From positions 1-64,000 of the forward strand of contig FWWN02000681.1 in NCBI GenBank assembly GCA_900175165.2: a stretch of 64,000 bases of DNA, written 5' to 3'. A program made the position numbers and the translations under genes. Source of the DNA: Rhizomucor pusillus. Taxonomy: Eukaryota; Mucoromycota; Mucoromycetes; Mucorales; Lichtheimiaceae. Below are positions 54,901 to 62,199 of this stretch, in pieces. A model generated the notes under the pieces. It was not told the DNA's origin, ran no database searches, and saw nothing but the letters and a program-made list of their open reading frames with translations. Within the stretch, counting starts at the first letter, position 1. Every line of letters starts with the position of its first letter.

Positions 54901-57063
54901 ATGGACGTCGACGATCCTGTCCAGGAACAACAATCCGCTTTGCCGCTATCAGCTCCAGGTAGTTTTCACAATATCTTGCGGAACACGATCAGTATTCTGA
55001 TGCAGCATTCATAGTCTGGGCGACAATCAATGATGCGCGTTTGACACATGGTCTCAGACATCAAGATTATCAACGCTACCGGTATGGAGTCTAGTGCTTC
55101 TGCAAACTTCATTGTATTTATACCTTTTCAATAGGGAGCATTGCACGCATCGTGTTCGTCGACTTCGTAAAACTTTGAACCTGACGCAGCCTAACAGCAA
55201 GAAACAGAACGTGCAGAAAGAATTACCAGAAAAGTTCAATGACCCACGCTATCTTTACCTTTGCGTATATGAAGTCGAACGTTCCTGGGCATACGCTATG
55301 GAGTTGAAACAGGAATCAACATCGACCATGAATATCCGGAAGAAGCATCATCTCATCAAGAGGTTGAAAAGGGCCAGCCAACACGCTGAAGCACTCTATC
55401 AGCTGTGCCAGAAGCAAGAAACGGACAACAAAACAAACTTGGAAATCAAGGTATGAGCAATATTTTCTCTGATAGATCTTTCTTTTTTGTGCTAATATTG
55501 ACATGCGTTTTTGTAAGGCATATTCGGCATTGATGAAAGGCTTCTGTCTGTTTGAACAGCAAGAATGGCAGCAAGCACTGGAGCACTTTGTCTCTGCCAG
55601 GTTTGAGTTTTCGATAAATGTTCGATGATATCTTAGATTATTAACTTTTGGGCAGAACTATCTACGATGGATTCGTAGCTTCGAGCAGCGAACCACAGGA
55701 CGAAGTGCTATATTCGTCGGCTGTTAACGACATAGATCCCAGCATTCGATTTTGCGCATACAAACTTCGTCTTGGTTCCGGAGGACAGCCGGATATCTCC
55801 AATGTGATCTCCAGCTTGAAGACTGATAATGCAGGAGAATTTGAGGAGATCGAGCGGCAATTGAGTGTACTTGACAAGGAAACTCGCAAGCAGAAGGCGA
55901 ATACTCTCGCGGAGACATCGTGGCGTGGCAGGAGACTTGTTGTCAGAAACGATGTTCTTGCTCAAGCTATTGTGAGAGCACAGGAATCATCAAACAAGGC
56001 CGATTCGAGCGCTTCGATTGAAATATTCGATCAGGTCTTGTCCGATTGGACAGATGCACGGAAGCTGCTCAGGAAAGCTATAAAACAAGAAAAGGAATTG
56101 CTGGCAAAGCTGGCCACATCAACGTTGCAAAAATCGCAAGAAGATTTGGATTGGCTTAATGCATTTGTGGCCTATAATCACGCCATGCGATATATCCAGC
56201 GCAATTTGAAGCTCGCAGATGGGCTTGGTAAACAAGGAGGAAAGCCACAAGAAATGATCAAATTGTATGACGGCATTCTGGAGGTATGTTTCTCTTACAG
56301 TGGGAAGATAACATATGCTTACGAATCCTGCAGAATATCGAGTCTCTGAGAGACATTGTTATATCCAAGGATGAGGAAGGAATCTTTGAGTGGGAACTGG
56401 ATGTCCTAGAGCAATTCTACCGCGGTTACAGGTGTGCAACTAGATATTGGAATCTTGATTGACTGATAGTTTGCTGAAATTCTATCTTTCTAGATGCCTG
56501 TATGTGGCAAAGGCGTACTCTGACTTACATCGAACTCCGGAAGCCGTTGCACTTTACCAGCTTGCGCAAACATATGCAGTACGAACGAAACAATTGATAC
56601 AAAGCGGTCAGTTCGACGAAAGCGCTGTTATAAAGATAACAGACGCCGATGTATCCGCTTTCGAGAATCAACTACGTGTTGGCTCTTTGAAAGCAAGAGC
56701 ATCTTGGTATCTCGCAAACGGCCAGCGTGAGCAGGACCTTTCAGAGCAAATGGAGGATTTGAAATTGGATTCCAAGGAAGTAGTAAGTTTATATACGGTG
56801 CCACAGCGAAGTGCAGGGATTGATTTTTTTTTTTTTGATGCGTTTAGGAGCCATTGATCAAGCGTCTGGATACTTATCCTGTAAACTTAACGAAGGATGG
56901 CTCGAAGGTGCCAAACTTGATCGACTTCCCTCCAACTTTCGAACCTGTTCCGTGCAAGCCGTTCTTTTATGATCTGGCTGCAAACCACATTCAATTTCCA
57001 AACGAATTATATGCCCGTGGAGGCATAATCCGGTGGTCTCTTCTCGAAGCTGTTTGGTTTTAG
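54901..57063 (+). CDS. SRP68: signal recognition particle subunit SRP68 (C-terminus frameshifted)
   Basis: A protein of the SRP that binds the 7SL RNA S-domain with SRP72. Exons 54901-54958, 55015-55081, 55135-55450, 55518-55600, 55656-56283, 56334-56431, 56494-56782 and 56848-57063; 584 residues. Seen are the N-terminal RNA-binding helices (HGLRHQDYQRYREHC, RRLRKTLNLTQ, RYLYLCVYEVERSWAYAMEL, KKHHLIKRLKRA), the TPR-like middle and the conserved end PVPCKPFFYDLAANHIQFPN. After ELYARGG the frame reads IIRWSLLEAVWF and stops at 57063. Shifting by one base at 57021-57029 gives SGGLFSKLFGFSK and stop at 57070, which matches the usual SRP68 C-terminus (human SGLTGYIKGIFGF). So one extra base is likely present, real or a sequencing error. 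Confidence 0.93.
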
Positions 57064-57272
57064 CAAATAAACTCAATTACTCTTATATTATAGACTCGCT
57101 CAGTTATATTTTGGCGCTGATATTCTTACTCATCCTAGTTTTATTACAGGTTGTTGGCTGTGCTGTATTACAAGTTTCCATCACTGCAAGTGTACAATTA
57201 TACAATTATCGATTATTCGATTTTCTTTTCGTCCGTGCTTCTTCCAAAGTTAAAGTACTGTTGCATTTTCCG

Positions 57273-59137
57273 TTAGCAAAAGTTGTTGGATGCTACTAGA
57301 GTGATATGTACCTTTTCGCGGAATAAGTAATGGCCTGGCGTCCGCTCAGCTTCTTTAGCACTGATTGCTATACCATCCTTCCACTCAGCAACCTTCTCCA
57401 TAGTAATCAATCGACGAGCCCATTGCCCAAAGTTTTGTTCGCTATTCGAGATAAGCTTCATACATGGGTGTTGGGGTACATCTGACGCGTCGTATCTTTT
57501 TCGACAATAACAGGTTAGTTTATACTTCTGTGCATTTGCTTTTTCATCCGCTTACTCTTCTGTTACTGTTGGAAGCCAGTACACCAAACGCCCTCCTAAT
57601 CTAAGATGGGTTGCTGAAAAGTTTAACAGGTCAACCAGCACTTCGGACATCTCGTAGGGTTTTGTCGGTGGGTAATAATCCTCTCGGCTATGTAGCCATG
57701 TAAGCAAGTACAAGCATTTCAGTCACATTTTTGTATCTTACGTATGCATTGGTTTGCCTTCATAGGTACGCGGAGATGGTGAAAAAGGCACTTTGGAATC
57801 TTCCTTTCTTCCCAGCCTTTTCGCACCAGCACGGACACCGTATGGCGCTAATACCTTCATCGTCAGCTTTTATAAATAACATATCCGATCATTTACCACT
57901 TACGATCTAAAGTTAAGTTATATTAGCAACAATAGCTCGCGTTGTTGACTTATTGGTTGAATATTCACCTGTTACGATAGCATCCAGCCATCCTTCCACT
58001 CGCCATGGATGATGGCATATATCAAAAACGAGTGAGTCCAGTACCTTGCCTTGCAACTGATATTGTTCTACGTTTGATTTCACGCTTGCGCCTTCTTTGC
58101 CTCGGATTTGGCGACCATCAATATCGGATCCCAGCGTGTATGCACCGAAATGGGCGCAAGTAAAGAGGAAACTTCCAGTGCCGACGAAAGGATCGTAAAC
58201 TAGTTTTCCAGGTGCAGCCTTGGCTTGATTGGCCATTATAAGGGAAAGCTCGGCATCCATAGATGTAGTACCCAGGTATTTCCGTTTCTTGAGATTGTAT
58301 TTTGATACAAGGTCTCGACTACCAGATGCAACCTTTTCGAAAAACTCGGATCAATGCCGACGTATTCATAGATCCAGAGATCAAGTGCTTACCACTCTTC
58401 CCATGTAAATCCACTCCCGCTGTGGTGTCTCCTTGCCCGGAGAACCAGCCTTGTAGTCTTCCAGGACAGTAAACTGGACATCCGGGTTTTTCATTTCGAT
58501 AGGACCCTTAAATCCCAAATATGCAAACGAGTTAATGACAGCCAACTGATCCTCTCTCTGCACGGTAGAGTTGAATGCCGCCACTTTGAATTTGAAGGAA
58601 ACTGTCATGTATTCTTCCTATTAGAGATTGTGTCAATTTCTCTTTCCAAAAATGATCCTTCTTTTGGTAATCACATACCCAACGTTGAGGGTTCTCCTTG
58701 ACCTTTTGATGGACAACATCATATGTCGGTCCTTCTCCCCATAGTTCATAGATTTTCCTAATAATGGCGCGTTAGGCTAAGCCATACCAGCGCTCGTGCA
58801 AGTAGATCGCCTCACTTGATCAAGATGGCCCGTTTGACAAGTTTGCGTGCATCAGCGTCAGACTCAAGCTCAACCTTGAGGAATGGTTTCTGGAAACCAA
58901 AGTTATTTCAAGTCGTCTAATAATTTGAAATGTGAGAGACGTACGTCTAGTCTATAGCCGTCTATGTTCGTATATTGAAATGGGACTTTTTCCAGATCGG
59001 CCAACGATTCAAACTCGGGCAGTCTGAACTCCTCATGAAACTAAAAGTGCCAAAGTACGCACGTTGAGTAATAGTATTATAAAAGTTTATTCGGTCATTG
59101 TGAGCACCTGTGCAAACTGGATCAAGTATGTCGGCAT
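57273..59137 (-). CDS. TRM11: tRNA (guanine10-N2)-methyltransferase catalytic subunit
   Basis: Methylates G10 of tRNAs with its partner Trm112. Exons: 59137-59108, 59040-58945, 58889-58816, 58757-58679, 58617-58393, 58332-57969, 57906-57904, 57847-57742, 57687-57556 and 57495-57273; 443 residues. The N-terminus MPTYLIQFAQFHEEFRLPEF and the THUMP-like middle lead to the Rossmann core: DAELSLIMANQA, VYDPFVGTGSFL, GSDIDGRQIRG. The catalytic DPPYGVRAGAKRL is complete only if a 3-nt exon ATC (57906-57904) is included; it has a good acceptor (TTAACTTTAG) and donor (GTAAGT). Skipping it gives TAPYG and loses the Asp. The stop 57273 may be replaced by a short extra exon. The ATG is 41 bases from the SND2 stop upstream on the same strand. 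Confidence 0.94.
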
Positions 59138-60171: not shown

Positions 60172-62199
60172 TCAAGTTAGAAAGTCCTTGTTTTCTGCTT
60201 CGAGCTTTTCATATTCGTGATCATTCAGAGGATCGTGCGAGAATCCACAGTTGTCGCCGTATTGACAGTTTCCTTTTAGATGGAAGTATTTACAGGGACC
60301 AGTCATCTCCCGCAAGCGTGCAAGCATCTCTGGAGTTAGCACGTCGTGGGAAAATGGGCAGCCATCACCAGATTTGCAGATTCCATCTATGTGGTAGAAG
60401 CGGCAAGGTTCCAGTTTCAAGTCCTACGCGCATAATTTCAATAACTAAAGCAGCTCAAATATAGTTGATAATTATACAATGACTTACGTGAGAAAATGGG
60501 CAATTTGCGCCCTTATAGCAGCTATTTGTCTTGAAATACTTGCATACAATCGGAAGCGCACTGCCCTCATGTCGGAAGGGGCAGTCATCACCTTTGTTGC
60601 AACGACCTTGTCTGTAAAATCTGCATACAATATTGGGTTTCTCCCGTTTCTCTTCAGCTTCCTTTTCTGCCTTCTTATGTTCCTTCTTGTTCTTCTTCAT
60701 ATTTGGCTGTCTTGTTCGCTTGTCCACTTGCCCTGGTACATTCTCCTTGAGAATTTCCATACCGACTATATTTGCTGATGTATCAGTACATTGTCCCATT
60801 ACAATCTCTCTGACTTCTTTTTAGAATAGGATAAAAACAAGGGACTTTACCTTGTTGTGCCACATATAATAGATCCTTTGGAGGAACATTGTTCGCCACA
60901 GGTGTCGTATGGCCAGTGCCAGACGTCCTATCTGGAATTCCAACGATTCCTGTCTTTGCTCGATCAGTCGTCGTTTTCTTCGGCTTCCTATCGTCAACTT
61001 TGACAGCATCGCTCGCTTTCCTTTTCAGCCCAGTGTGGGATGGACTTTTCGATGAAATGTTAGTTGCGTCTGCCGTGTGATCTGTAATGGTATATTGCTT
61101 AGAATGTCCCTGAGATGCCGAGACTGTATTCTGAGGAACGGTATTCACAACAGATTGGCACTGTGCTGAGATTGTCTCTTGAGGAATATTGTTTACAGTA
61201 GGCTGATGGTTTGCTGAGATTGTCTTTTGAGGAACAGTATTTGCAGTAGGTTGGTGCTCGAGTGGGCTTGGTAACTGCTGATCCGGACGCCTTTCCATTG
61301 TATCACCGTCAGAGGACTTCTTTACATTGTCAATATCAGGTGAAACCTGACTAGTTGTGTCGACAATTTTTGCAGATAGTGTCGGATTGATAAGTTGGGA
61401 CTGACCATTCTGGTAGGGTGCAAGCAGTGCATCGAAATCGAAATCAATCGCAGGCTGAAGATGCTGCTTCGAGGCAGATGTGTCGTCAGGCTTCGTTTGA
61501 TATACTGGTTCCCGCTTTTCCACGTTCTCAGAAGTAGGTATAGCTGGAGCTCGAGTGGGATTAGAAAGATCTGATTTATCTTTCGAAGAGGATCCAAGAC
61601 CGGGAGGGATTTCAGCCTGACGTTTCTGTTGATCGATAGACTTCTCCTTATTCTCATCCTCATGTTGAGCAGGCACTGTTTCCTCTCCTGGGACAGTGGA
61701 TATTGGTTGACTGGAAACAGCAGACTGCACGTGACGTTCTACGTGAGGTGCAAGGAGAGCATCAAAGTCAAGTTCGATCTTCTCAGACTGGCCGTATGGC
61801 TTCGAGACAGGAACGATCTTCGTGTCGTGTTCACCCAGTGCAGGCTTCTTCCCCAGATTGCCACTGGGTGCCTCGTCGTCGATCGTCTTCCTTTTGACAC
61901 CGATCTGGGTGGATGCTTTGTCGCTAGATTGGCTTGCAGCTTTGTTTGAGGTGTCGCTCTACCAAGGGATCAAGATCGACGCTTCAATGTCAAATGCAGG
62001 ATCTGGATCTTAATTTCTATTCACTTACTGCCATGTACGCGTCCAATAACTGATCGAAATCATTGTCATTCTGTGCTTGATCCGTTGGATCATCGTAATG
62101 CCTGAAACTCTTTCTATTTCCCCGCTTCCTTTTGTTATTTTGATTCTTCTTTTTCTTCTTTTGATTCTGTTTGTTTTGAGAACGTTTTACGTCTGGCAT
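60172..62199 (-). CDS. CCCH zinc-finger protein with four fingers
   Basis: Exons 62199-62029, 61958-60851, 60765-60488 and 60423-60172 give 602 residues. The N-terminus is very basic (KKKKKNQNNKRKRGNRK). A disordered middle contains three copies of a DFDxLL motif (about residues 47, 121 and 231) and a tandem repeat of three 16-residue units (NTVPQKTISA, NNIPQETISA, NTVPQNTVSA). The C-terminal 170 residues carry four CCCH fingers: CRFYRQGRCNKGDDCPFRH, CKYFKTNSCYKGANCPFSH, CRFYHIDGICKSGDGCPFSH and CKYFHLKGNCQYGDNCGFSH. Such finger arrays bind RNA and are common in mRNA 3'-end and decay factors; the layout also recalls animal ZC3H4/6/8. No specific orthologue is claimed. Confidence 0.88.
61125..61260 (-). 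repeat. degenerate 48-bp tandem repeat in the CCCH gene
   Basis: Three successive units of about 48 bases encode the 16-residue repeats of the disordered middle region. Units differ by several substitutions but keep length and frame. Confidence 0.65.

Follow-up and report, generated by a model that had tools for sequence, protein, structure and literature searches.

An exon of only three nucleotides, ATC, probably completes the DPPYG active-site motif of the tRNA (guanine-10-N2) methyltransferase gene TRM11 in the window, the whole 64,000-nucleotide stretch of DNA analyzed here. A 3-nt exon with this role is strongly supported by the sequence together with that of relatives, and we put the probability at roughly nine in ten that it is constitutive, that it arose from a second intron 3 nt upstream of an old donor, that the two introns are removed stepwise, and that the product is a normal enzyme with DPPYG. 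The exon lies in the context CTTTAG/ATC/GTAAGT, with canonical sites on both sides; splicing ATC in gives VTDPPYGVRAG, and skipping it gives VTAPYGVRAG with the reading frame kept. The initial annotation had proposed this exon and its flanking introns, and all of the letters and coordinates it gave were confirmed. Its claim that ATC completes the DPPY motif appears to be borne out by the inclusion product, with which the signature in relatives agrees. It had further held that skipping removes the catalytic Asp in frame; the frame is indeed kept, but Asp-Pro becomes Ala, which is not a mere deletion of Asp.

Identity and exon structure of the gene

On full-length similarity, domain and motif, the gene is assigned to TRM11, and its m2G10 activity with Trm112 is predicted. 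The closest relatives, from Syncephalastrum racemosum and Dichotomocladium elegans, are each 74% identical over 98% of the length, several of the listed homologues bear the name tRNA (guanine(10)-N(2))-methyltransferase, and the protein scores 41.5 bits against Pfam UPF0020 (PF01170), above the cut-off of 22.3. Against the prokaryotic methyltransferase model TIGR01177 of NCBIfam it reaches 71.1 bits, below the cut-off of 316.55, and it is thus related to that family only, not a member. The active-site motif DPPYG is present in the protein only with exon ATC. A protein search of the genome (24.45 Mb, 353 contigs; best candidates scored) returned eight matches, all of them exons of the TRM11 gene in the window, and found no second copy. 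A UPF0020 match on another contig of the assembly, C129, was considered as a second copy and rejected as a different methyltransferase gene. Rfam gave no match over the whole window.

Table 1. Coordinates of TRM11, its exons, the introns flanking the 3-nt exon, and two neighboring genes
Feature	Position in window	Strand	Description
TRM11 gene	57213..59137	minus	11 exons joined = 445 aa without stop; homologues, Pfam UPF0020
TRM11 exon 1	59137-59108	minus	
TRM11 exon 2	59040-58945	minus	
TRM11 exon 3	58889-58816	minus	
TRM11 exon 4	58757-58679	minus	
TRM11 exon 5	58617-58393	minus	
TRM11 exon 6	57969..58332	minus	364 nt; contains DPFVGTGSF, end ..DAIVT
TRM11 intron 6	57907..57968	minus	62 nt, phase 1, GTGAAT...CTTTAG
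TRM11 exon 7 (ATC)	57904..57906	minus	3 nt; gives AT of Asp290 codon and C of Pro291 codon
TRM11 intron 7	57848..57903	minus	56 nt, GTAAGT...TATTAG
TRM11 exon 8	57742..57847	minus	106 nt; opens CGCCATACGG
TRM11 exon 9	57687-57556	minus	
TRM11 exon 10	57495-57312	minus	
TRM11 exon 11	57257-57213	minus	
SRP68-like gene	55648-56857	plus	seemingly tail to tail with TRM11
CCCH zinc-finger gene	60172-60799	minus	upstream of TRM11, same strand

Exon 6 closes with ..GTA ACA G, its final base being the G of the Asp codon, and exon 8 opens with CG CCA TAC GGT, the remainder of Pro291 followed by PYG. Introns 6 and 7 (62 and 56 nt) are within the usual length for this gene, whose remaining eight introns measure 54–67 nt. 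By eye, CTAAT at 57926-57922 in intron 6 and CTGAC at 57866-57862 in intron 7 resemble the branch-site consensus. In the neighborhood, the SRP68-like reading frame 55648-56349 matches Pfam PF16969 with 87 bits; in the CCCH zinc-finger gene, reading frame 60172-60420 matches several CCCH families, and reading frame 60455-60799 looks alike by eye.

Splice paths to the motif and their occurrence by chance

The uniqueness of the splice path was assessed by enumerating all GT-AG paths across the region 58332-57742 with introns of at least 40 nt. Among 25,591 two-intron paths, 38 yield DPPYG, and only five of these are stop-free. All five use exon ATC with donor 57903, and none of the enumerated GT-AG paths reaches DPPYG stop-free by any other exon. 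Exon 6 remains intact in just one of the five, the path with donor 57968, and the other four trim it. None of the 437 single-intron GT-AG paths gives DPPYG. A wider enumeration, in which GC and AT donors and AC acceptors were added, introns of at least 30 nt were allowed and the first donor was placed in the last 290 nt, produced DPPYG in 46 of 83,811 two-intron paths (16 of the 46 stop-free). The middle exon of all 46 ends in ATC at donor 57903, and the reported path alone combines GT-AG ends on both sides with a stop-free frame. When looser motifs were admitted for single-intron paths (DAPYG, NPPYG, DPPF and others), one match appeared, which removes 147 nt of exon 6. The competing paths to DPPYG were accordingly rejected for their stops, their cuts into exon 6 or their non-GT-AG ends.

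The pattern YAG-N3-GTRAGT occurs once in the window, both strands considered, and that occurrence is this exon. We also shuffled the 121-nt stretch 20,000 times with dinucleotides preserved, counting a signal only where its parts kept 30 nt or more from each end; YAG-N3-GTRAGT arose in a fraction of 0.0007 of the shuffles and YAG-AYC-GTRAGT in none. The bare arrangement AG-N3-GT is not rare, with 421 occurrences in the window and a fraction of 0.18 in the shuffles, and AG-AYC-GT is found in 0.006 of shuffles and 12 times in the window.

The junction in related fungi

We scored 8000 candidates in a homologue search and obtained 3269 homologues, the best 120 of which underlie all counts given for annotated proteins. 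Within this set the motif reads DPPYG in 102, TAPYG in 14 and otherwise in 4, and all 14 carry the exact skip product VTAPYG. The TAPYG proteins are from Dichotomocladium, Radiomyces, Cunninghamella, Halteromyces, Absidia, Apophysomyces, Lichtheimia, Endogone, Gongronella, Calcarisporiella, Hesseltinella, two Syncephalis and Thamnocephalis, and thus span three phyla, Mucoromycota, Calcarisporiellomycota and Zoopagomycota. This reading is specific to the loss of AYC in phase 1; had a different 3 nt been lost, TPPYG or T[DE]PYG would be expected, and neither is found among the 120 listed homologues. The four remaining motifs belong to Phycomyces, Basidiobolus meristosporus and the chytrids Rhizophlyctis and Fimicolochytrium, the two chytrids having other residues ahead of PPYG. 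The annotations P0013 and P0046, from Phycomyces (VTEAPYG) and Basidiobolus meristosporus (VTGSAHPPYG), are odd at the same junction. The Lichtheimia gene model must contain more than one fault, because it departs from the family just downstream (RAGEKTPNCH). In an alignment of the 120 listed homologues with the window protein, 146 columns are at least 90% conserved, and Asp290 is the column with recurring short gaps (14 of 120; two other conserved columns have 1 and 2); column 36 is gapped in 109 because the window protein carries one more residue there. By sequence, the archaeal structure 5e71 aligns TDPPYG at the same place (E 2e-4), and structures 6zxw and 6zxv have TDYPY at the motif position, with Asp kept. 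Gene-prediction error is the simpler reading of the 14 TAPYG entries, some of which could reflect real transcripts.

Genomic reading frames provide a view of the junction below the level of gene models. An ORF search with the exon-6 frame, extended as far as it stays open in intron 6, gave 330 matches, the best 120 of which were read, and a search with exons 8 and 9 joined as a protein query gave 15, none of them a Mucorales relative displaying ATC; the resulting 135 sequences were sorted together. The exon state of relatives is thus deduced from annotated proteins and ORF translations, and one species may be represented by more than one ORF. Most, 95 of the 135 (91 of the 120 in the exon-6 search), read DPPY unbroken and are mostly distant; a Funneliformis-like one among them, P0131, may be cDNA. 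Eight, comprising the window itself and seven relatives, read VTG[K/R/E] and then soon stop, 13 read V[TC]DR, 4 read V[TC]DV, and 15 read otherwise. Judged from the protein letters, VTGK corresponds to ACN G/GTAAR, with a donor ahead of ATC, and VTDRKF to GATC/GTAAGTTT, with a donor after ATC and no intron ahead. The V[TC]DR group comprises nine DRK frames, the rest being DRM, DRN, DRA and one ending at DR; by affinity it includes five Mortierella-like, two Umbelopsis-like, one Circinella-like and one Glomeromycota-like ORF, one Pneumocystis entry and three unplaced ones. The V[TC]DV frames (P0136, P0143, P0144 and P0173) read as if an intron lay directly after the Asp codon. In P0252 the frame crosses a one-intron form (VTDRAF...VTAPYG), P0242 and P0249 enter APYG from an intron, and P0127, 90% identical to an Umbelopsis-like protein, has 23 extra residues read through into APYGVRAG, which points to one intron of about 69 nt there. 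The motif seems to be a repeated site of introns.

The seven VTG relatives are nearest to Syncephalastrum (96%), Lichtheimia (92, 94 and 95%), Cunninghamella (87%) and Absidia (87%), while for the seventh, P0130, Halteromyces and Chlamydoabsidia are equally near at 87% each. Their nearest annotated proteins read TAPYG in Lichtheimia, Cunninghamella, Absidia and Halteromyces, and DPPYG in Chlamydoabsidia and Syncephalastrum. Strong but indirect evidence that the 3-nt exon may have been kept in relatives consists of 14 of 120 TAPYG proteins and 7 upstream-donor ORFs, drawn from proteins and translated ORFs. The Syncephalastrum case comes closest to evidence for inclusion: DPPYG stands in the annotated protein, yet a genomic ORF 96% identical to it runs into VTGRLYW and meets a stop shortly afterwards. 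A different segment of the gene should therefore encode the Asp, with the qualification that the annotated strain possibly differs from the contig in exon structure. When prokaryote and virus contig collections were scanned for the pattern using the protein of Syncephalastrum, 11 matches came from the former and 1 from the latter, none of them a relative.

The direction of evolutionary change, as we infer it, runs from one intron to two. Intron 7 is probably old, because a donor after GATC is found in the 13 V[TC]DR ORFs of varied lineages; the intron ahead of ATC is confined to part of the tree. A FastTree phylogeny was built from 72 sequences, made up of the window protein, 19 ORFs and 52 of the 120 annotated proteins; support is low at several of its deep nodes. 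With the one-intron state at its root, the tree requires at least 2 changes if DNA-level states alone are used and at least 4 if the TAPYG annotations are included. It places the window in a Mucorales fungus close to Syncephalastraceae and Lichtheimiaceae. The node uniting Syncephalastrum with the group of the window is weakly supported (0.161), and the one Circinella-like ORF without intron 6, which lies in the sister group of the clade of the window (0.992 for the whole), implies that a loss or a second gain also happened. The intron 6 site, CAG/A, fits the classic proto-splice site. Tandem intron duplication was rejected as the origin: introns 6 and 7 are unlike beyond their ends, with a local score of 10 that was reached in 2000 of 2000 shuffles, and this dissimilarity leaves no trace of a tandem copy.

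The UPF0020 methyltransferase on C129, presumably THUMPD-like, has a single intron, 55 nt long, at the position equivalent to intron 6 of TRM11, in phase 1 of the motif Asp codon (VVDIVIS/DWPWG; L001:1855-1990, about C129 42104-42239). This paralogue does not fit simply with intron 6 as the younger intron; either the tree greatly underestimates the age of intron 6, or introns were gained at one place twice, independently.

Proposed mechanism, alternatives and known ultra-short exons

From these observations we infer how the transcript is actually spliced. An old fungal intron would have had its donor directly after GATC, that is, after the Asp codon and the first base of Pro, and a second intron inserted at CAG/A 3 nt upstream would have left ATC as a separate exon. 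Each short intron would be recognized as a unit (intron definition), a mode to which the normal intron lengths are suited. Removal would be stepwise, since the acceptor of intron 6 and the donor of intron 7 are 3 nt apart and could hardly be bound simultaneously. Intron 6 would most likely leave first, joining ATC to exon 6 with the strong GTAAGT donor remaining for intron 7, and GTAAGT after ATC may offset the poor exon side of this donor. The product would be a normal Trm11 with DPPYG. If both introns were instead skipped as one 121-nt intron, the in-frame VTAPYG form would result. This form is presumably dead, given that a signature in TRMT11, described as strongly conserved, is assumed to serve substrate coordination in the active site (PMC10415138) and that the DPPY (D/E-P-P-Y/F) motif is described as common to several methyltransferases (PMC11514484).

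Constitutive inclusion of ATC is likelier than switched inclusion. The initial annotation had suggested that the exon could act as an on/off switch. In such a switch ATC would be alternatively spliced and the skip form, VTAPYG, would still bind Trm112 in an inactive state; we regard this as unlikely. Skipping does leave the frame intact, and some of the gene builds behind the 14 of 120 listed homologues with VTAPYG may have used transcripts. Some skipping could also be tolerable, because a yeast trm11 deletion grows like the wild type under laboratory conditions (PMC9957541). Growth of the double mutant lacking TRM11 and TRM1 is not wild-type-like (PMC9957541; PMC10415138). We found no direct support for a switch, given the flanking introns of usual length, the GTAAGT donor and the DPPYG of 102 of the 120 listed homologues; moreover, skipping requires a 121-nt intron, compared with 54–67 nt in the other eight, and failure of gene models at tiny exons is documented, all deposited transcripts but one being wrong at a 1-nt exon (PMC12940212).

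It is very improbable that the motif has been destroyed, with the donor shifted 3 nt upstream, ATC intronic and VTAPYG genuinely made. The 14 annotated TAPYG proteins would agree with such a loss, as would the possibility of removing the 121 nt as a single intron; against it, the 62-nt stretch alone is a complete GT-AG intron adjoining GTAAGT, Syncephalastrum has DPPYG in its annotated protein alongside a VTG genomic form, and an enzyme conserved elsewhere along its length is unlikely to have lost a conserved Asp in three phyla. A sequencing or assembly artefact in the window is scarcely credible: the window comes from a single assembly, but the same exon end, VTG followed by a donor, recurs in 7 other ORFs, and the TRM11 search found this locus only. 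A bolder proposal, in which the exon has been kept since before the split of Mucorales, Endogone, Calcarisporiella and Zoopagales and its skipping serves as an m2G10 off-switch that explains many VTAPYG builds, strikes us as a long shot; if true, it would amount to post-transcriptional control of tRNA m2G10 methylation.

With constitutive inclusion as the preferred reading, the TRM11 exon would be a new, phylogenetically broad case of a known phenomenon and of a recurrent annotation error. It presents the tiny-exon problem in a silent in-frame form: ordinary gene prediction tends to pass over the exon, and a missed exon leaves a complete-looking protein lacking the active-site Asp, and the database entries of 14 of the 120 listed Trm11 relatives have precisely this form. 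The arrangement suggests a simple route by which a 3-nt exon may arise, from a pair of introns separated by 3 nt, and the species with and without the upstream intron form a natural series on how the spliceosome handles an exon too small for two-sided binding.

Among the matches listed in searches of the open-licence literature, none dealt with TRM11 exons or with tiny exons of Mucorales. Two hits were set aside: PMC10744626, with exons of 399, 297 and about 300 nt, is a false match for a fungal 3-nt exon, and in the part of PMC4462047 (Mortierella) that matched, the word microexon denotes a mapping-program option. The case is not the first of its kind, since constitutive 1-nt exons have been published (Arabidopsis APC11 and Fusarium CYP621A); the earlier description of 3 nt as near the lower limit for spliceosomal exons is fair, with the correction that exons of 1 nt are on record.

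As described in PMC12940212, Fusarium CYP621A has a constitutive 1-nt exon, called the first for a fungal gene, with wrong gene models. Like the TRM11 exon, it is fungal, lies inside a conserved motif and separates two introns within an over-long apparent intron (139 nt, compared with 121 nt in TRM11), and it is missed by nearly all gene models. Skipping of that single nucleotide breaks the frame, whereas in TRM11 the 3 nt are in frame and the Asp is silently lost; the Fusarium exon is known with RNA reads, and the TRM11 exon from DNA and protein sequence, with a signature across several orders. Arabidopsis APC11 likewise pairs an ultra-short constitutive exon with a wrong deposited record, but it is a plant gene, its exon is 1 nt, and it was tested in vivo; before it, the smallest constitutive exon on record was 6 nt and the smallest alternative one 3 nt, according to PMC4674806. 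Many ultra-short exons are listed in a plant microexon database (PMC12409088). The 3-nt exon of Drosophila homothorax equals that of TRM11 in length, but it is alternatively spliced, with isoform-specific functions (PMC7392893), whereas constitutive use is likelier in TRM11. Compared with Trm11 itself, the tRNA m2G10 methyltransferase with partner Trm112, the window protein is a full-length relative in which only the exon arrangement is unusual.
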